A stretch of 64,000 bases of DNA, taken from assembly GCA_028278335.1 (NCBI GenBank), contig JANQEN010000063.1:1-64000 (forward strand), given 5' to 3'. Both the position numbers and the translations under genes were made by a program. The notes below the pieces were generated by a model. It saw only the letters and a program-made list of their open reading frames with translations, did not search any database and was not told the origin of the DNA. Source of the stretch: Chitinivibrionales bacterium (GTDB lineage Bacteria; Fibrobacterota; Chitinivibrionia; Chitinivibrionales; JANQEN01). How positions within the stretch are numbered: the first letter of the stretch is position 1; each line of letters begins with the position of its first letter. Shown here one piece after another: positions 9,823 to 21,697 of this stretch.

Positions 9823-10566
9823 ATGAAAAAGCTATCAGCAATTTTCGTTTGGGTAATTCTGCTTGCCTCATACGTGCTGGTCCAAGCAGATGATTTTGAA
9901 GCAGTAAGAAAGATGCTCTCACTCAATAACCTCAATTGGGAAATTAATGAGAGAGTCACCACAAAGAACGGTCGAATAACTCGATTAGACTTAAATAACC
10001 AGGAAGTTGGAAAAGAAGGTATTACATTTCTACCTTCCCAGATAGGAACGTTAACAGAGCTAGAGGTGCTCACCATTAATGACAATGATTTATCAGATCT
10101 ACCCAATGAACTTTTTGGCTTAGAAAAGTTAAAAACCTTAGAAGTCCAAAACAATGATATCACAAAACTTAGTAAAAGGGTTGGAAATCTTTCAGACCTC
10201 CTAGTGCTTGATTTAAGGAATAATGAGCTACGGGTTTTACCAGAACAAATCTCAAAACTAAGAAAACTTGAAATACTTCAGTTGTGGGGAAATGATCTGG
10301 AATATCTTCCAAAATCTGTAGCAAAGCTCTCATCCCTTAAAGAACTCTATTTACGGGGAAATAAATTGCTTAACCTTCCCTCAGGAATTACAAAATTGAG
10401 ATTGACCTACCTCGATATCCTTGACAATTACATTTGTGAGGTCGATAAAAAGGTAGATTCCTGGATAAAAAGATACGATCCCAAATATAAGGATTTACAA
10501 CTTTGCATTATTTATTACAAACAGAGAAATAGATTAGATGAATATTACAATGGATTTAAATGGTAG
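9823..10566 (+). CDS. Secreted leucine-rich-repeat protein
   Basis: The 247-residue protein has a signal peptide ending near VQADD. An N-terminal cap region is followed by about six LRRs of ~23 residues with the bacterial pattern LP..I..L..L..L.L..N.L. Examples are LPNELFGLEKLKTLEVQNND and LPKSVAKLSSLKELYLRGN. A C-terminal cap holds Cys residues. Such domains bind proteins or glycans outside the cytoplasm; the ligand is unknown. AAAGGAGG precedes the ATG. It is transcribed alone, with a terminator following. Confidence 0.88.
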   Translation: MKKLSAIFVWVILLASYVLVQADDFEAVRKMLSLNNLNWEINERVTTKNGRITRLDLNNQEVGKEGITFLPSQIGTLTELEVLTINDNDLSDLPNELFGLEKLKTLEVQNNDITKLSKRVGNLSDLLVLDLRNNELRVLPEQISKLRKLEILQLWGNDLEYLPKSVAKLSSLKELYLRGNKLLNLPSGITKLRLTYLDILDNYICEVDKKVDSWIKRYDPKYKDLQLCIIYYKQRNRLDEYYNGFKW

Positions 10567-13112: not shown

Positions 13113-13952
13113 CTACTTCAAAAGTGAAACTGGTCTGACTGAACCAATTTGTTTCGAATCAGTTAAATTATATACTTTAAATAGGTAAACCCCTGATGAA
13201 GAGCCACGTGTGCCAATTTCACTGGAAGGTAGTGAGAGTTTTTGAGTAGTAATAGATTCAGCTGTCCAAACCTTTTTGCCCTTTAAATCGAAAACATCAA
13301 CACCAAAAGGTACCTGCTTTTGTAATGTAAGAGTCACAAGGCCATAAGAAATCTCTGCATACCATGCGCTTTGTTTGTGTTTGACCTGTGGTACGGCAAT
13401 AGCAGTATTAGGATCGTAGGATGCCTTAAAGCCGGAAAAACAGGTGTCAGAGATGGTGTCGCCGAGGACCTCCTTTTTCTCGTCGTCAATTACTATGGTA
13501 CCCTTGGAATATCGACCTATGTACACCTCATTAGGATCATGAATCTTCCAATAATATTCACTTTCTGCCATCTCCACACAAAATTCATAGGTTCCATTAG
13601 GCACTGCAACACCATTAGTATCCTTGCAATCCCAGACGACCTTTAATGCCTTTGTGTGATCAGCTAACGTAGCTCCAGTTTCTCCATCATACTCACCGTC
13701 AATTAAGAGGCCAGTGACTGTACGCCAATTCATTAGACAAAAGTTATAGCCATAACTCCAGAGTCCCAATGTTTTTACGTATTTATTCCCCGGTTGTTGA
13801 ATCCAAATACTGGCAGTATGACGAGGAGCTGTTATTCCTCCATAGCTTTTAGTTTTAACAGTTACTTCCATCTTCTTACTGAAACTTAGGGTAAATAGTA
13901 AGAGTAGTGCAATGCAACATGCCCTGTTGCGTCTCATCTTTTTTTGTAGCAT
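13113..13952 (-). CDS. DUF2271-like secreted protein with C-terminal sorting domain
   Basis: The 279-residue protein has a signal peptide (cleavage near SFSKK). A domain at about residues 28-170 then reads TASIWIQ.PGNKYVKTL, DGETGAT and an H.....VWDCKD segment. That matches the beta-sandwich of DUF2271/FlgD-Ig-like predicted periplasmic proteins. The last ~75 residues resemble a type IX-style C-terminal domain, ending in GVYLFKVYN and a final strand. GAGG lies upstream of the ATG. It is last in a row of three minus-strand secreted-protein genes (16138 to 13113). DUF2271 proteins often occur with flavin-dependent or thiol redox proteins, which fits the deiodinase-like neighbour; that link is inference. 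Confidence 0.78.
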   Translation of the reverse strand: MLQKKMRRNRACCIALLLLFTLSFSKKMEVTVKTKSYGGITAPRHTASIWIQQPGNKYVKTLGLWSYGYNFCLMNWRTVTGLLIDGEYDGETGATLADHTKALKVVWDCKDTNGVAVPNGTYEFCVEMAESEYYWKIHDPNEVYIGRYSKGTIVIDDEKKEVLGDTISDTCFSGFKASYDPNTAIAVPQVKHKQSAWYAEISYGLVTLTLQKQVPFGVDVFDLKGKKVWTAESITTQKLSLPSSEIGTRGSSSGVYLFKVYNLTDSKQIGSVRPVSLLK

Positions 13953-13986: not shown

Positions 13987-15021
13987 TTATCTATTGTAAA
14001 GTATAGGAATTGTTGTTGTCTCTTTATCGAATGTAATTGTTAACAGGTACATACCATCACCAAGATTTTTAGGTAATGTGTATTGATAATCTCCTGTTTT
14101 CATTTTGTTATTTCTTAAAGTGAAGACCTTTTTACCAAGAAGAGTGTACATATGTGTAGCAAACTGACCATTTTTATGTAATGTGTAGTGCAATTTTCCA
14201 TGCTGTAATAGTCTTGAGTCGCAGGAAAATCCATGGATAGACCTATTTTTTCTCAATGGTCTACCAATGTTATTTGACCCAGAAAGAAGATATTTCATGT
14301 ATATTTTCATTAGTTTATTTCGTTTATTTTCATCCCTCAGAGCACCAAATAAGACACTTGAATGAATGGTGCGATATCGTTCATCCACTCCTTCGTAGGA
14401 AGAGGTTCGCCCTTTATCTTTTTCACATTTAAAAAGCAACCTAGCCTTTCCCCCATCAATCTCACTTATCCAATAATTAGTAAGACATTCTGGCAAATAC
14501 TCCATAGTAACATTTGACACGATAGTATTGGCTTGGCCCTTCAAGGTATTCAAATTTGTAGTAGTATCTACACCGGGTCCAACATATGTACAACCAAGCT
14601 TATTAAAAAGGTCATTATCGGAATTGTTGTAGGCGTATGCTGTGCCTTCCAAATAGAGTCCCTTACCGTGTCTTAAAAATGAAATGAGTTTTTCCCGATC
14701 CACCGGATCTATAATTTGGTGATCCTCTCAACAGTGGTAAAAGCCTAAAGTGCCAATAATTACCTTGTAAGAACTGATCTCCTCTGGCAAAGTAATCCCA
14801 TAGTGGTAATCATAGGAATACCCATTGGCATCAAGGCTTTTTTTAATCCAATATGCACAATCAATTGTATCATCGATCTCAGGTTCATAGTATCGATCAT
14901 ATTCAAAGGGATCAAAGTGCCACAGAAGAATGTTATTTTTTCCAAAAGCCTGCGAGGGTATCATAATAGTACATGATAAATAAATAATCAGGCATTTGAA
15001 AAATTTATTCATTCTATTCAT
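13987..15021 (-). pseudogene. Secreted C-terminal-domain protein interrupted by one in-frame TGA
   Basis: Two pieces in the same frame, 14728-15021 and 13987-14727, join across a single TGA at 14728-14730 with no frameshift. Together they give 344 codons. The first has a signal peptide and a segment leading to VIIGTLGFYHC. The second continues EDHQI, then KLISFLRHGKGLYLEG, the pattern of a family common in secreted proteins of FCB bacteria (LG.Y...H.., then L..FL..GG.LY.EG). It ends in a sorting-type domain with a DGMYLLTI segment. The stop falls in a variable loop, so a nonsense mutation is the simplest reading. Selenocysteine is the alternative, since the neighbouring gene has a convincing Sec codon. 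A hairpin downstream of this UGA (GATCACC with GGTGGATC, one bulge) is not a good bacterial SECIS. Confidence 0.6.
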
Positions 15022-15169
15022 TCTTCCAAGTGTTTCATAGTAAAAAATAGAAAGAACTATCCCTTATACAAGGGATAATTCTTCTACTTTCCATAACAGA
15101 TGCATTGAATAGTGCCCAGGGCTGCACCTTTTCAGATTATCTGTTTGATTTCCTGTTCTAAGCCAGTAT

Positions 15170-16138
15170 CTATTGCTTTGCAGTCACCCGGATTTTGGAA
15201 CTAAAGGTTCCATTTCTTGTCCTTAAATGTGCCACATACACACCTGAAACAGATCGAGCAGCAAGAAGATGTTTACCTGGTCCTTGCCCATACCACGTGG
15301 CAACACGCTTTCCTAAGGTATTAAAGAGCTCCATGGAGTAGTGCGTCTCTTGAGGCAAAGTAACAGAGACAACTCCCCTATTATCAATGCGTAATATTTT
15401 ATCAGGTGTACTTGAAAAATCATTCACATTTATTATAGGTGTTGGCATATTTTCTGTAAGAATTTTATCCAATCCCTTATAGGTGGTATCTACCCAAATC
15501 TTTGCACCCTGAACAGTTCCACCCGGTCCAGGAGGCCAATGGGAAATATAGAGGAATTCACCATCCAAACCAACAACATACACTGAGGTATAACTGGCTT
15601 TAAATTTCTTTGAAACAATGCAGCCTGTATTCAATTTGGGGTTGGCACCATCAGGACCATCATCAACCAAAGCCGGTATTTTTATTTCTGGATAGGCTTT
15701 CATGTAACATTCATGATGTTCAATACGATGTTCCAAGCCATTCGGCTTTGTAAATGGTTGCTGGTACCACCAGTCCCCACTTACTTCTCTAAACCTATGA
15801 CTGTCATTATTTCGCGAAGGATGCGCCTCCCAATGATATACCTCATACATGGAAAACAGAGGGTGATCCTTAAACTTATTGTAAATCTTCATCTTTTTAG
15901 TGTTGACGCCTACAGCGTTGATCTCGTGACAGAAAGGCTGTCAAGTAATACTACCGAAAATCAAACACAACACCTTTTTTCCATAAATGGAATCAGTGGA
16001 AAAAGTTTTGTCCTTATATTGATACATGGTGAATTCCGGTGCCGGCGCATGCAGTGTAATGGCATTTTCTGCAAACAGTGGAGACAGGAATAATCCCACG
16101 ATCAATAGAGAGGATCTAAGCTTTTTTAAAGTAACCAT
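15170..16138 (-). CDS. Deiodinase-like thioredoxin-fold selenoprotein, secreted
   Basis: Reading through a TGA at 15941-15943 gives one 322-residue protein; stopping there would leave two fragments with no sense. AGGAGG precedes the ATG at 16138. A signal peptide ends near LFAEN. The fold then reads APAPEFTMYQ, VLCLIFGSIT, the UGA codon (residue 66), and QPFC. FGS-x-T-U-x-P-F is the active site of the iodothyronine-deiodinase/redoxin-like family, with Sec at exactly this position. Residues 104-108 read EAHPS, a second family signature. A hairpin with an apical UGUAG loop lies about 26 nt after the UGA, within the known range for bacterial SECIS elements. The last ~70 residues are a sorting-type domain (GVYVAHLRTRNG). 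Bacterial relatives are probably thiol- or selenol-dependent reductases; the true substrate is unknown. Confidence 0.85.
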
Positions 16139-16503
16139 GATACCTCCTGCTAGGGCAGAGCATTTAAGTATGTATTGTATGTTTTTAATTATTACTGAAA
16201 TTATATATCTATAAAATAGTACAATTTTTAATAAATGATGGATTTATTTATATTTTTTTGTACACTGAACTCTTTTATTATTATGGATATTACCCTTTAA
16301 TTTCGGAGAAATATCGTTTTTAGGGTTAATTTTTCATGTATTCTTTAGAATTGCTAATGATTTTTAATCTCACTGCCATCCCCTTAAATGAGCAAGTGCT
16401 TCAGCTCCGAAAAACCAACTTCCTACTTGATCAGCTTTATGCCTTTGACACAAGAGGCTCCAATATAGTACCATTTGTATAAATAAATCACTTAGACAAA
16501 GTA
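16139..16503. other. Intergenic region with a possible 41-codon ORF
   Basis: The region is AT-rich up to about 16350. From 16357 to 16482 an ATG opens a 41-residue frame (MIFNLTAIPL...), where base composition becomes more coding-like. It has no Shine-Dalgarno site. It could be a leader peptide or a gene remnant ahead of the methyltransferase at 16504. I do not count it as a gene. Confidence 0.3.
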
Positions 16504-17586
16504 ATGTTACGGGGTACCAACTGTATGCAGGATAAGACATTTACCATATTTCCAGGGAATAAACTCTATGAAATTTCAATGGAAATGGAATCCTTCACCT
16601 GGGGTGAAGAGCTAACGGTAGCTTCACGAAGCAAGCGCCCCTGGTATCATCCTGTGATTGCATCCTATGTCAATAGGACCATTTCCGGGAACGAGCAGAA
16701 GACTTGGCACACCTATATTAAAGAAAAGTATGACCATTTTGATCATGGTTGTTCTTTAGGAAGTGGCATTGGTTTTGAGGAGGAGAAGTTAATAAAATTA
16801 AACCTCTTTGATAAACTTGATTTATATGAACTTAGTGAAACCGCTATGAATAAATTTAAAAATCGAGTTCTGAGTCAAGATGATCTTAAAACCCAATTTA
16901 ACACCACTATTACAGACCTCAATTTTATTTCACTACCAGAAAATCAATATGATTTTATTCTCTGCAATACAATTCTCCATCATGTCATTAATTTGGAGCA
17001 TGTTTTAAATGAAGTAAATAAAGCACTCAAACCAAATGGGATTTTAGTCATAAATGACTATTGTGGAGAGGACCGGTTTTTCTGGACTGAAGAGAAACGA
17101 TCCTTTTTAAATGCAACCATATCGTTGATGAATTCTAAATATGGCACAATATTAAATCCTGTTGTAAAGCATCCTAATGCTGTTGTCTCTGCTGTCACTC
17201 CCTTTGAAGCCATTCGTTCAAGCAAGATTATCCCACTTGTAAAAACTCTCTTTAACGAGACAACCATTATGCAAAGGCAACTCTTTAGTGCTCTCTTTCC
17301 AATTTTTGGGTGTAGAAACTTTTCTGACTGGGATGCCCCTGCAACAACATTGATTTTTCAACACTTTGTACTTTTAGACCAAGTTATTTCTGCAACACAA
17401 CTTCTTAAACCTTGCCACTTTTTTGGCATATTTGAAAAATCAAATCTATGTCTCAAAGATATTTCACCCTGGGATGAACAAAGAATAAAGGATGAATTTT
17501 TACCCTTTATTGAGTATTACAAAGAATACGGCAAAAAGATGAATTTGAAAACACCTGAGGAAAAAGGCCATCAATCAAAAAAATAA
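16504..17586 (+). CDS. Class I SAM-dependent methyltransferase
   Basis: The core domain lies at about residues 70-190. The SAM-binding loop is HGCSLGSGIGFEEE, an acidic residue ends the second strand (DLYELSE), and NTILHHV is motif post-I/IV of methyltransferase type 11/12 enzymes. KPNGILVINDY is the motif after it. The 360-residue length means a long C-terminal extension that I do not recognise; it may bind substrate. No signal peptide. The ATG at 16504 has no good ribosome-binding site; one at 16525 is a possible alternative. Substrate unknown; small-molecule or sugar methylation is most typical. Confidence 0.85.
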   Translation: MLRGTNCMQDKTFTIFPGNKLYEISMEMESFTWGEELTVASRSKRPWYHPVIASYVNRTISGNEQKTWHTYIKEKYDHFDHGCSLGSGIGFEEEKLIKLNLFDKLDLYELSETAMNKFKNRVLSQDDLKTQFNTTITDLNFISLPENQYDFILCNTILHHVINLEHVLNEVNKALKPNGILVINDYCGEDRFFWTEEKRSFLNATISLMNSKYGTILNPVVKHPNAVVSAVTPFEAIRSSKIIPLVKTLFNETTIMQRQLFSALFPIFGCRNFSDWDAPATTLIFQHFVLLDQVISATQLLKPCHFFGIFEKSNLCLKDISPWDEQRIKDEFLPFIEYYKEYGKKMNLKTPEEKGHQSKK

Positions 17587-17632: not shown

Positions 17633-20600
17633 CTAGACTTTTTGTGTTTCCTTTTTCCGACTTTCTATCCAGAGATAGAGCGTTGGAATCACCAACAATG
17701 TTAATGTAGTAGAAGAGGCCAATCCACCAAGGACAACAATTGCTAATGGTCTCTGCACCTCAGCTCCTGGTCCTGTTGCCAAAATCATGGGCAACAGACC
17801 CAGAAAGGTAGTAACAGAGGTCATGAGTACGGGACGTAGTTTAGAGATTGATCCCTGGACAACAGCGTCTTTCAGGTCCGATCCAACATCTCGCAAATAC
17901 TGAATCCGTGCTAAAAGCACCAAATCATCCTCAATTGCAATACCAAAGAGTACAATAAATCCAATTGATGCGGGGATACTTAAATATTCACCCCAAAGCG
18001 CCAATGAAATAACACCTCCCACAAAGGATAGGGGGATATTTAAGAACACAAGCAATGTTTTAGACATTGAATTAAAGGCGCCAAAGATCATCATAAAAAT
18101 GAGAAAGAGGGTGATAGGCACGATAATAGCCAACCGTTTATTCGCCTCTTTTCGAAGTTCAAACTTACCTCCATAGGTAATAACATATCCCGGAGGCAAC
18201 TTTACCCGTTTCTTAATATACTCCCTCAATTCTTCAACAAAGCTTCCCTCATCTCTACCAGTCACATTACATTGGACAGCAACTAACCGGCTTCCATTTT
18301 CATGGCTTGATTGGCGCATGCCTTCGACAAGCTTGATTTCAGCCAACTCTGCTAAAGGAACCTGCTCACCCTGCGGAGTATTAATCAGCAGGTTTTCATA
18401 GGCTTCCACGTCTTTACGATGAGATTCGTCAAAAATGACTGTGATGTCAGTTGTTTTATCTTGCTCAAATACGCGACCAACCCGCTTACCACCAATCGCA
18501 TCATGAATGAGCCGTTGCACATCGGCAATATTAATGCCATATTGGGCAACTTGATCCCTTAACAAGGTTATTTGTAACTGTTTCTGACCAGCGACTTGCT
18601 CTAAGAAGATATCAACAGCTCCCTTTTTTGCAAATTCTAAAAAGAGAATGGAGTCACGAATCATGGTAGCTTTCTCTTCAAGTACTTTGATATCCGGCCC
18701 AAAGATGCGAATTGACACCTGCGATCCAGTGCCGGCAACTAAATCGTCTAGTTCATGCTGAATCGGTTGTGACATGTTAAAGGCAACACCAACATATCCT
18801 TTTAACTTGCCCCTAATCATATTCGCAATATCTTCCTGAGATTTAGCTGTTTTCCACTTCTTTTTTGGGTGCAGTCCAATTTGAATACAGGAGAAATTGG
18901 TTTGATGAACATGGGGTCCCACTTCTCCATAGCCAATATCAGAAGTAGCATAACGAACCTCTGGTATCTCTAAAATCTCCTTTTCAATACGGGATGATAC
19001 CCGGCCAATCTCATTGAGAGAGATGTTTGGATCAAAATAGGCTAATAAATCAATGGTTCCCTCTTTTAAAACTGGTTGAAATATTTTCCCCATTTTTGTA
19101 ACAAGGAATAATCCGGAAATCAAAAGCACGACTGAAATGGTTATAACCATCTTCCATCGACCAAGCAACCAGAGTAATACCTTTTCATAATGCTTGTTAA
19201 GAAAAAATTCTGATTTGTCACGCCCCCGTACTTTTTCAGGGAATAGGCTATAAAGAACCGGCGCAACAATGAGTGCATAAATAAGTGAGCCAATCATTGC
19301 AGTGCATACGGCAAAGGCTAGGGGGCGAAACATCTTTCCCTCAATGCCTTGGAGCGTAAATATTGGTAAGAAAACAAATATAATGATTCCAATAGCAAAG
19401 AATATGGGCCGTCCGACCTCTTTACATCCGTCAAGAATCAATTTTTGCGGCGGTAAAGAGAGTGACTCAGTATGGAGTTTACGATGCATCTTTTCCACAA
19501 TGATAATGGTTGCATCCACAATCATACCTAAGCCAATTGCCAATCCTCCCAGTGATAGAAGGTCTCCCGAGATACCACCTACATAAAACACAATAAAGGA
19601 GAGTAGCAATGCAAAGGGTAAGGACATGACAACCACAATAATATTTTTTACTCTTCCCAAAAAGAGCAATGACACGATGCAAACAAATAACAAACCTTGA
19701 AGAAGTGTGTTTGATATGGTGCGAACACTATTCTTTACCAATTTTCCTTGATCATAAATTGGATAAATCTTCACACCTTCCGGAAGAGTTTGATTTATCT
19801 CATCAATACGTTTGCGCAGTTGCTTGATAACCTCAAAAGAGTTAGCACGATGGAGTTTGTATACCCATCCTACAACAATCTCCTCTTTACCATTCATTGA
19901 GGCAATACCCCGCCTGAACCCTCCCTCTATTGACACATCAGCTACATCGCGAACGTAGACTGGATTATCCTGATAAAAGCCAACAACAATACCAGCAATA
20001 TCGTTTACATTAGAAATACTGCCAATACTTCGAACGATCCACTCTTCCTCACCCTTTTCAATGAGTCCAGCCCCAACGTCTTGATTGTTCTCCTCGATTG
20101 CAGTGGTAACATCATCAAGAGTAATGCCATAGCCGGTTAATTTATAGGGTGATACTTTGACGATAAACTGTTTCACATTGCCACCCTGACTAACCACATT
20201 GGCAATACCAGAAAGGCTTTGGAGGTTAGGTTTGACAATTTCATCCTGAAGAGCACGTAATTCAGTGTTGTCAAGCTTTTTCCCTTCCAGGCGATAATAG
20301 AAGAGCGCTCCAGTTCCACTTGCAACAGAGCCCATTTCCACGCCGTGAGGCATATCAAGCCCTTTAGGAATGTGCTCCTCTGCTTCCACAATTTTTTCAG
20401 CCACCAATTGCCTTGCCTTGTAAATGTCAACCTTGTCTTCAAAGTACACGTTTACCCGTGAAAGACCAAAGGTGGTGATACTCCGAATCCTCTTGACACC
20501 GGGTACTCCAAGCATGGCTGACTCAATTGGTCGAGTTACCATTTTTTCAACGATTTCAGTTGGTGTTGATTCCACCTCTGCAAAAACTTGCACTAGATTG

Positions 20601-20731
20601 GGACTCAAATCAGGAAATGCATCGATAGGTAAATTGATTACTGCAACCGTACCACCAATGCAGACTGCGATAAAAATAAGCACCACAAACATGCGATGCT
20701 TTAAGGCAAATTCTATTAATTTATCAATCAT
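17633..20731 (-). CDS. Heavy-metal RND efflux pump, CusA/CzcA family
   Basis: This 1032-residue inner-membrane pump belongs to the heavy-metal efflux branch of the RND superfamily. The N-terminus has the characteristic first TM helix, then PIDAFPDLSP, VE...M and a PGV segment. The proton-relay helix reads GGLAIGLGMIVDATIIIVEKM with a central Asp, closer to CusA-type than CzcA-type proteins. The duplicated architecture of two 6-TM halves and two large periplasmic loops is complete. It would drive proton-coupled export of Cu/Ag or of divalent metals. AGGA precedes the ATG. It is the last gene of a minus-strand cluster, separated from its adaptor by a repeated structured element. Confidence 0.93.
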   Translation of the reverse strand: MIDKLIEFALKHRMFVVLIFIAVCIGGTVAVINLPIDAFPDLSPNLVQVFAEVESTPTEIVEKMVTRPIESAMLGVPGVKRIRSITTFGLSRVNVYFEDKVDIYKARQLVAEKIVEAEEHIPKGLDMPHGVEMGSVASGTGALFYYRLEGKKLDNTELRALQDEIVKPNLQSLSGIANVVSQGGNVKQFIVKVSPYKLTGYGITLDDVTTAIEENNQDVGAGLIEKGEEEWIVRSIGSISNVNDIAGIVVGFYQDNPVYVRDVADVSIEGGFRRGIASMNGKEEIVVGWVYKLHRANSFEVIKQLRKRIDEINQTLPEGVKIYPIYDQGKLVKNSVRTISNTLLQGLLFVCIVSLLFLGRVKNIIVVVMSLPFALLLSFIVFYVGGISGDLLSLGGLAIGLGMIVDATIIIVEKMHRKLHTESLSLPPQKLILDGCKEVGRPIFFAIGIIIFVFLPIFTLQGIEGKMFRPLAFAVCTAMIGSLIYALIVAPVLYSLFPEKVRGRDKSEFFLNKHYEKVLLWLLGRWKMVITISVVLLISGLFLVTKMGKIFQPVLKEGTIDLLAYFDPNISLNEIGRVSSRIEKEILEIPEVRYATSDIGYGEVGPHVHQTNFSCIQIGLHPKKKWKTAKSQEDIANMIRGKLKGYVGVAFNMSQPIQHELDDLVAGTGSQVSIRIFGPDIKVLEEKATMIRDSILFLEFAKKGAVDIFLEQVAGQKQLQITLLRDQVAQYGINIADVQRLIHDAIGGKRVGRVFEQDKTTDITVIFDESHRKDVEAYENLLINTPQGEQVPLAELAEIKLVEGMRQSSHENGSRLVAVQCNVTGRDEGSFVEELREYIKKRVKLPPGYVITYGGKFELRKEANKRLAIIVPITLFLIFMMIFGAFNSMSKTLLVFLNIPLSFVGGVISLALWGEYLSIPASIGFIVLFGIAIEDDLVLLARIQYLRDVGSDLKDAVVQGSISKLRPVLMTSVTTFLGLLPMILATGPGAEVQRPLAIVVLGGLASSTTLTLLVIPTLYLWIESRKKETQKV

Positions 20732-20767
20732 ACATTTAATCCTAATTTTTTATTTATTTATTTACAC

Positions 20768-20911
20768 GGGGGGAAGGGTCCCCCCACAGCAAGCTTCCTT
20801 CACACTTTTTAACAGTCTTCATTCAAAAGATTAGTTTCACCTACACGGTGAACCTAATCTTTTGAGCAGACTGGATAACAAAACTGTTCAGGTGATCTTG
20901 CTGATTCCCCC
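20768..20911 (+). repeat. Structured ~142-bp intergenic element, copy 1
   Basis: The element starts GGGGGGAAGGGTCCCCCC and ends ATTCCCCC. An outer long-range stem pairs AGCAAG near the left end with CTTGCT near the right end. A central hairpin pairs CAGTCT with AGACTG, then TCAAAAGATTAG with CTAATCTTTTGA, then TTCACC with GGTGAA around a small loop. The same plan, with different bases in the stems, recurs at 49329 (inverted), 54022 and 59063. This copy sits between the RND pump and its adaptor, so it lies inside the operon's transcript. Confidence 0.9.
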
Positions 20912-20989
20912 TCAAATAGTTCAATTTTTTAGCAACAAACTTTAAGAGGAGTTAAATGAAGTTTTAGTATGCAATAAAGAGTGTTCACA

Positions 20990-21697
20990 TCAGTGAGCAT
21001 GACCGTGGCCACCAAAGTCGGATTCTGGTTTAAGAAGTTCTGCACGGAGATGGAAGCTACCATCAGTTACAATTTCTTCGCCACCTTTTAGTCCTTTGGT
21101 GATTTGGGTAAAGCCATTGGCTTTAAAGCCAGTTTGTATTTCACGCAATTCATATTTGCCATCTTTACCAGTGCAAACAAAAACACACCGTCTATGGAGA
21201 ATCACATGGATTGCACCATTGGGAACAGAAACAACCTTTTCAGGAGTTTTAAAATTAATGGTACCATTGAGAATTGTTCCCGATATTAAAGCACTACCAT
21301 TGGCATCAAAAGCTGCGATGGCTTCATAAACTCTGCGTTTGGTTTCACTCTCTTTTCGAGTCAAGGAAACAACGTTACCTTTTAATACTTTATCCTTTAA
21401 AAGTGGTGTTTCTGCAGAAACTTCCTGTCCAGCTGAAACAAATTTCTTGTCCTTTTTATGGACGGTAAAAAGAGCCTGATACCGTGCACCTTTTTTTGCA
21501 GTCACTTTTCCTGTAAGCCGAACCTTTTTCTCCATTACCATAGGTTCAACTTTCTCATATTTTAATTTCATCTTTTCTTTTACATTTGAAGGCAACTCTG
21601 TTATCACATGGGAGCCCTCACCCATTTTCCATTCTTCCCCAATTATTGAAAAAGTGAACATAAGTAACAACACCAAAACAGTTATTTTTGCTTTCAT
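20990..21697 (-). CDS. Short periplasmic adaptor-like protein (CusB-type C-terminal region)
   Basis: The 235-residue protein has a signal peptide (cleavage near IIGEEW). The beta-rich segments KVRLTGKV, KKFVSAGQEV, and then LVSVPNGAIHV and LKGGEEIVTDG, resemble the membrane-fusion proteins that partner RND pumps. It lacks the long alpha-helical hairpin and full lipoyl half-motifs that contact TolC-type channels, so it is about 100-150 residues shorter than usual. The C-terminus is His-rich (GGHGHAH), suggesting metal binding. The start is supported by AGGAG. It follows the barrel gene by 15 bp and so is co-transcribed with it. Confidence 0.8.
   Translation of the reverse strand: MKAKITVLVLLLMFTFSIIGEEWKMGEGSHVITELPSNVKEKMKLKYEKVEPMVMEKKVRLTGKVTAKKGARYQALFTVHKKDKKFVSAGQEVSAETPLLKDKVLKGNVVSLTRKESETKRRVYEAIAAFDANGSALISGTILNGTINFKTPEKVVSVPNGAIHVILHRRCVFVCTGKDGKYELREIQTGFKANGFTQITKGLKGGEEIVTDGSFHLRAELLKPESDFGGHGHAH

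Follow-up and report, generated by a model that had tools for sequence, protein, structure and literature searches.

A probable deiodinase-like selenoprotein with a predicted T9SS export layout in a marine Fibrobacterota genome carrying two Sec-decoding systems

Introduction

Deiodinase-like selenoproteins of bacteria were reported in 2005 in a survey of the Sargasso Sea (PMC1088965), and a 2026 inventory of 119 selenoprotein families includes them (PMC13188914). In the animal deiodinase Dio2, the relay and catalytic residues are Ser127, Thr129, Sec130, Tyr157, Glu160, His162 and His182 (PMC11592359).

Here we describe a gene from a marine member of the Fibrobacterota that very probably uses UGA as a selenocysteine (Sec) codon and encodes a deiodinase-like protein flanked by predicted export signals. 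The window, i.e., the whole stretch of DNA analysed, comprises 64,000 nucleotides.

Results

Gene structure

The gene starts at an ATG (16138-16136), ends at a TAA (15172-15170) and encodes 322 residues plus the stop. The single frame with one TGA at 15941-15943 claimed by the original prediction was borne out, and it lies on the minus strand, which that prediction had omitted. The gene has the following features:

15170..16138, minus strand: deiodinase-like selenoprotein gene, 322 aa, UGA very probably read as Sec (frame, homologs and codon comparison)
15941..15943, minus strand: in-frame UGA, predicted Sec66 (aligned UGA in nine of nine family members)
16143..16148, minus strand: Shine-Dalgarno sequence AGGAGG, 4 nt 5' of the ATG (sequence)
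16070..16138, minus strand: putative N-terminal signal peptide MVTLKKLRSSLLIVGLFLSPLFA (read by eye from the sequence)
15536..16048, minus strand: thioredoxin-fold/deiodinase-like catalytic domain, residues 31-201 (Dio3 4tr3 profile, E 3e-10; NF038285, E 6e-9)
15191..15373, minus strand: T9SS type A sorting domain, residues 256-316 (TIGR04183, 26.6 bits vs. a cut-off of 23)
15906..15918, minus strand: SECIS-like hairpin ACGC-UGUAG-GCGU (family signal significant; own copy p 0.19)

The protein reads FGSIT-U66-QPFC around the UGA, and EAHPS begins at residue 104, 38 residues further on; both motifs and their spacing had been given correctly.

The in-frame UGA and its decoding

Among 167 genomes of the phylum, the catalytic domain was found in only two, which belong to the same taxonomic family: the genome under study and a relative from a sister genus, the Fibrobacterota MAG CSMAG_2808. 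Nine members of the protein family were recovered, five in this genome (one each on contigs C115, C18 and C222 and two on C148) and four in the sister MAG, with 23-62% identity to the window copy. All nine contain exactly one TGA within the domain, in the same alignment column. TGA is aligned to TGA in the sister-genus ortholog, and identity between the two proteins is 50% upstream and 52% over the 256 codons downstream. The third codon position is the most diverged on both sides of the UGA, which, together with the level of identity, indicates that both halves form one protein under selection. A homolog with a stop or an unrelated residue at this position had been named beforehand as evidence against Sec; every homolog found has UGA, and in none does unrelated sequence come after an ordinary stop. 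The nine-member alignment has no stretch of sufficient conservation for a scan of genome collections. When a narrower family alignment was scanned against public genomes, the only match was in the sister MAG, and neither viral contigs nor plasmids gave a match.

SelA, SelB (both over the cut-off) and tRNA-Sec (anticodon UCA) are each present twice in the genome, in two selA-selB-selC operons (C244:31447-35026 and C6:8636-12088; loci L007 and L008). There are also two SelD, both with Sec (C13:59470-60402, L084; C179:5103-6026, L085), and the check for selA, selB, selC and selD suggested with the original prediction thus returned two of each. The SelD encoded on C179 carries a Cys-rich N-terminal extension. 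SelA was detected in 14 of 40 genomes of the order, and only this genome has two. In the SelA tree the C6 copy is similar to the other copies from the order, and the C244 copy is placed far apart (36-41% identity). Judged from these sequences, the genome has two full selA-selB-selC sets that differ in ancestry. Contamination as the origin of the second operon is unlikely because the C244 contig is of similar composition and carries a protein with the sorting tail typical of the phylum. With two divergent complete Sec systems in one genome, the coexistence of two SelB/SECIS codes becomes a question that can be addressed.

Since the standard code reads UGA as a stop and a 240-codon ORF opens at an ATG ∼50 nt downstream, the gene could in principle have suffered a recent nonsense mutation or consist of two separate ORFs. 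We consider such a plain stop very improbable: the active-site codon is UGA in all nine copies from the two genera, the codons past it are constrained, and the genome has the full Sec machinery. Genome-wide reassignment of UGA to an ordinary amino acid (e.g., Trp), which would mean that there is no selenocysteine, gained no supporting point in this analysis and is to us almost inconceivable. Out of 164 in-frame TGA positions scanned, those that have known homologs and a coding signal to either side were the redox-site ones; ordinary genes are free of interior TGA, the C18 deiodinase-like paralog itself terminates at TGA, and two tRNA-Sec and SelB are present. From the UGA column shared by all nine members, the Sec machinery and the coding conservation through the UGA, we concluded that the UGA of the window gene is very probably a Sec codon.

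The hairpin with a UGUAG loop that had been noticed ∼26 nt past the UGA is present at 15918-15906; counted from the U of UGA, its loop begins at nt 30, which places it 26 nt beyond that codon. Taken alone, the hairpin was non-significant in synonymous shuffles (p 0.19), so for this gene we rate it as plausible and not as proven; the close ortholog of the window gene gave no hairpin that passed the search. Hairpins with a loop starting with GG were found at nt 24-30 from the UGA in 8 of the 12 selenoprotein genes of both genomes (six of them exactly at nt 27), compared with 2.2% of 34,532 control codons. Synonymous-codon shuffles of the selenoprotein gene set gave a combined p of 1.6e-6, which is optimistic because the orthologs are not independent. 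Rfam gave no match within the window.

Relation to deiodinases

The deiodinase relation proposed for the fold gained profile evidence. A profile built from the nine domains placed mouse Dio3 (4tr3) first among solved structures, and the UGA fell on the catalytic residue of Dio3 in the profile alignment. Pfam PF00837 matches six of the nine family members (best 1e-8), and the window protein alone scores 12.6 bits, below the cut-off of 27. NCBIfam NF038285 matches the window protein over its catalytic domain, but its score of 35.8 bits, where the cut-off is 250, makes it a non-member. As it stays under both cut-offs, the protein is called deiodinase-like here and not a deiodinase.

Residues S63, T65, U66, Y101, E104 and H106 of the window protein align with S127, T129, U130, Y157, E160 and H162 of Dio2. 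Six of the seven residues of the Dio active-site set are thus kept, and the relay is incomplete, Dio His182 being replaced by Pro128. The candidate resolving residue Cys70 is absent from most paralogs, and several of these have a Cys directly before the Sec codon (C-U, not T-U). AlphaFold models of the window and neighbour proteins, made from two-sequence alignments, had a mean pLDDT of ∼40 and were unusable.

Export signals

The sorting-type C-terminal domain reported earlier scores over the TIGR04183 cut-off. Tails like it end proteins throughout the phylum, including secreted ones, and a hydrophobic N-terminal stretch also opens the other family members with complete N-termini. The SprA translocon is encoded by a 2144-codon frame, which passes the model's cut-off together with the neighbouring matches in that frame. 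In the open-licence literature, we found no paper linking T9SS with a selenoprotein. T9SS export, the expansion into paralogs and the neighbour family described below appear to be new. The signals flanking the fold had been put forward as unfamiliar for this family: the export layout does appear new, but bacterial deiodinase-like selenoproteins themselves have long been on record (PMC1088965), so that novelty is limited to the export architecture and the expansion.

Neighbouring genes

The adjacent gene, which the original prediction overlooked, appears to encode a second selenoprotein. The features of this region are:

13987..15021, minus strand: second predicted selenoprotein gene, 344 aa, GTLGFYHC-U98 (ortholog with UGA and same gene order in the sister genus)
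14728..14730, minus strand: in-frame UGA, predicted Sec98, vicinal C97-U98 (sequence and ortholog)
14697..14709, minus strand: SECIS-like hairpin GAUCC-GGU-GGAUC belonging to the second gene, with its loop at nt 27 (the sister genus has GAUCC-GGC-GGAUC in the corresponding position)
15051..15084, minus strand: strong terminator-like hairpin separating the two selenoprotein genes (15 pairs and a T-run)
13113..13952, minus strand: third gene in the conserved cluster, for a secreted DUF2271 protein whose sorting tail is weak (PF10029, 29.7 bits vs. 27.3)

The GTLGFYxC-U protein matched no Pfam or NCBIfam model except a sorting tail below the cut-off. We detected no relation between it and the deiodinase-like domain and found no matching entry for it in the 119-family inventory (PMC13188914). 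Because of the strong terminator-like hairpin between the two selenoprotein genes, a single operon is not assumed. The DUF2271 gene comes after the second selenoprotein gene in both genomes; its orthologs adjoin deiodinase-like genes in loci L066 and L061, and a paralog adjoins the two deiodinase-like copies on C148. A second conserved neighbourhood of deiodinase-like genes is that of the C222 copy and its sister-MAG ortholog (L063:1689-3875, L064:2910-5090), each of which has as its neighbour a long, secreted repeat protein bearing a tail of the sorting type. On the other side of the window gene, a heavy-metal efflux RND transporter of the CusA/CzcA type (above the cut-off of TIGR00914) and an adaptor subunit are encoded at 17633-21697 (minus strand), separated from the selenoprotein cluster by a plus-strand methyltransferase gene at 16504-17586.

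Other selenoprotein genes

Gene callers halt at UGA, and selenoproteins are therefore easily missed. A codon-score scan for UGA genes recovered most of the known cases and found an additional one, an Omp28-like gene (L081:10411-11556 on C244, UGA at 10549) that adjoins the second sel operon. Its UGA replaces the first Cys of a CxxC motif. The protein has a T9SS-like tail, and a comparison with the deiodinase-like domain revealed no relation. Homologs in the sister MAG (L092) and in a genome of another family (L091) keep the UGA (UGSC and UHAC), and a more distant homolog has CAWC; the genome of the other family has a tRNA-Sec over the cut-off. No paper on an Omp28 selenoprotein was found in the open-licence literature.

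The genome contains at least nine selenoprotein genes, which is a lower bound. Seven of the products appear to be exported, with predicted T9SS-type tails of varying strength.

Discussion

UGA conservation, the Sec machinery, Dio homology, the sorting domain and SprA are directly supported by the sequence data; from these we infer actual Sec insertion, export, the reaction and the substrate of the window protein. It is likely, in our judgement, that the gene encodes a Sec-containing deiodinase-like protein whose UGA is decoded and which, exported by T9SS, acts as a selenol reductase at the surface. Such a protein would contain Sec and, within the thioredoxin/peroxiredoxin fold, belong to the deiodinase-like branch. 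Resident SelB and tRNA-Sec would decode UGA66, helped by the hairpin about 22-35 nt downstream. The product would cross the inner membrane via its Sec signal peptide and the outer membrane via T9SS, and would be located on the surface of the cell or outside it. At this site the Sec66 selenolate, activated by Ser63, Thr65, Tyr101, Glu104 and His106, may reduce a substrate that is oxidised or halogenated. The enzyme would be resolved by a thiol, for which Cys70 is a candidate.

As a surface selenol-dependent dehalogenase, the protein would strip iodine or bromine from halogenated aromatics, as the animal deiodinases do; Dio3 is its best solved relative, it retains the greater part of Dio's proton relay, and the isolate name of the sister MAG (CSMAG) suggests cold-seep sediment, presumably a haloaromatic setting. 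However, the relay His182 is lost, the Dio omega-loop region is not demonstrably conserved, single family members also match AhpC/TSA and redoxin, and CU in place of TU in several paralogs suggests disulfide chemistry. We regard a dehalogenase as improbable, and peroxide or disulfide reduction is the likelier reaction. AhpC-TSA and redoxin models match 4-5 family members and Dio itself is peroxiredoxin-like (PMC11592359), which would fit a T9SS-exported peroxiredoxin-like scavenger shielding surface enzymes from peroxide with no substrate specificity. This is conceivable but doubtful, as the PxxxTxxC/U peroxiredoxin motif is absent and Dio is the better profile match. The surface selenol reductase described above is the reading that we prefer.

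The apparently exported selenoproteome and the two Sec systems are more surprising than the window gene itself. We tentatively suggest an extracellular selenoproteome in which mutually unrelated deiodinase-like, GTLGFYxCU and Omp28-like proteins would be sent out across the outer membrane by T9SS for redox or dehalogenation reactions at the surface, with the two Sec systems of different origin sharing or dividing their clients within the same cell. If these proteins are exported, selenium chemistry would extend to the outer surface of T9SS bacteria. The family also adds bacterial comparisons for the origin of the animal deiodinase fold.

Comparison with known systems

Compared with the described bacterial deiodinase-like selenoproteins (PF00837; PMC1088965, PMC13188914), the window protein shares the predicted Sec at the Dio catalytic position, UGA decoding and a Dio-like sequence. 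It differs in its motif, which is UxxC in Table 1 of the inventory (PMC13188914) and UQPFC (Cys at U+4) or C-U in the window family. The putative signal peptide, the T9SS tail and the five paralogs in a single genome seen here are undescribed in the accessible parts of these sources. The vicinal Cys-Sec of the neighbour protein and of some deiodinase-like paralogs is also found in the CU-motif selenoproteins listed in the accessible part of the inventory (SaoL, SaoC, HgcA, MbdU and KCU-star; PMC13188914), from which the neighbour stands apart in its lack of model matches beyond the weak sorting tail. With T9SS type A sorted proteins (TIGR04183), the window protein has in common a C-terminal domain over the cut-off, and SprA is present in the genome. 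With animal Dio1-3 (4tr3 and others), it shares FGSxTU, Tyr-x-x-Glu-x-His and the profile match (E 3e-10), whereas Dio1-3 are membrane-anchored and the window protein is predicted to be exported, has 8 extra residues between Sec and Tyr relative to Dio2 and, unlike the animal enzymes, is not expected to act on thyroid hormones.
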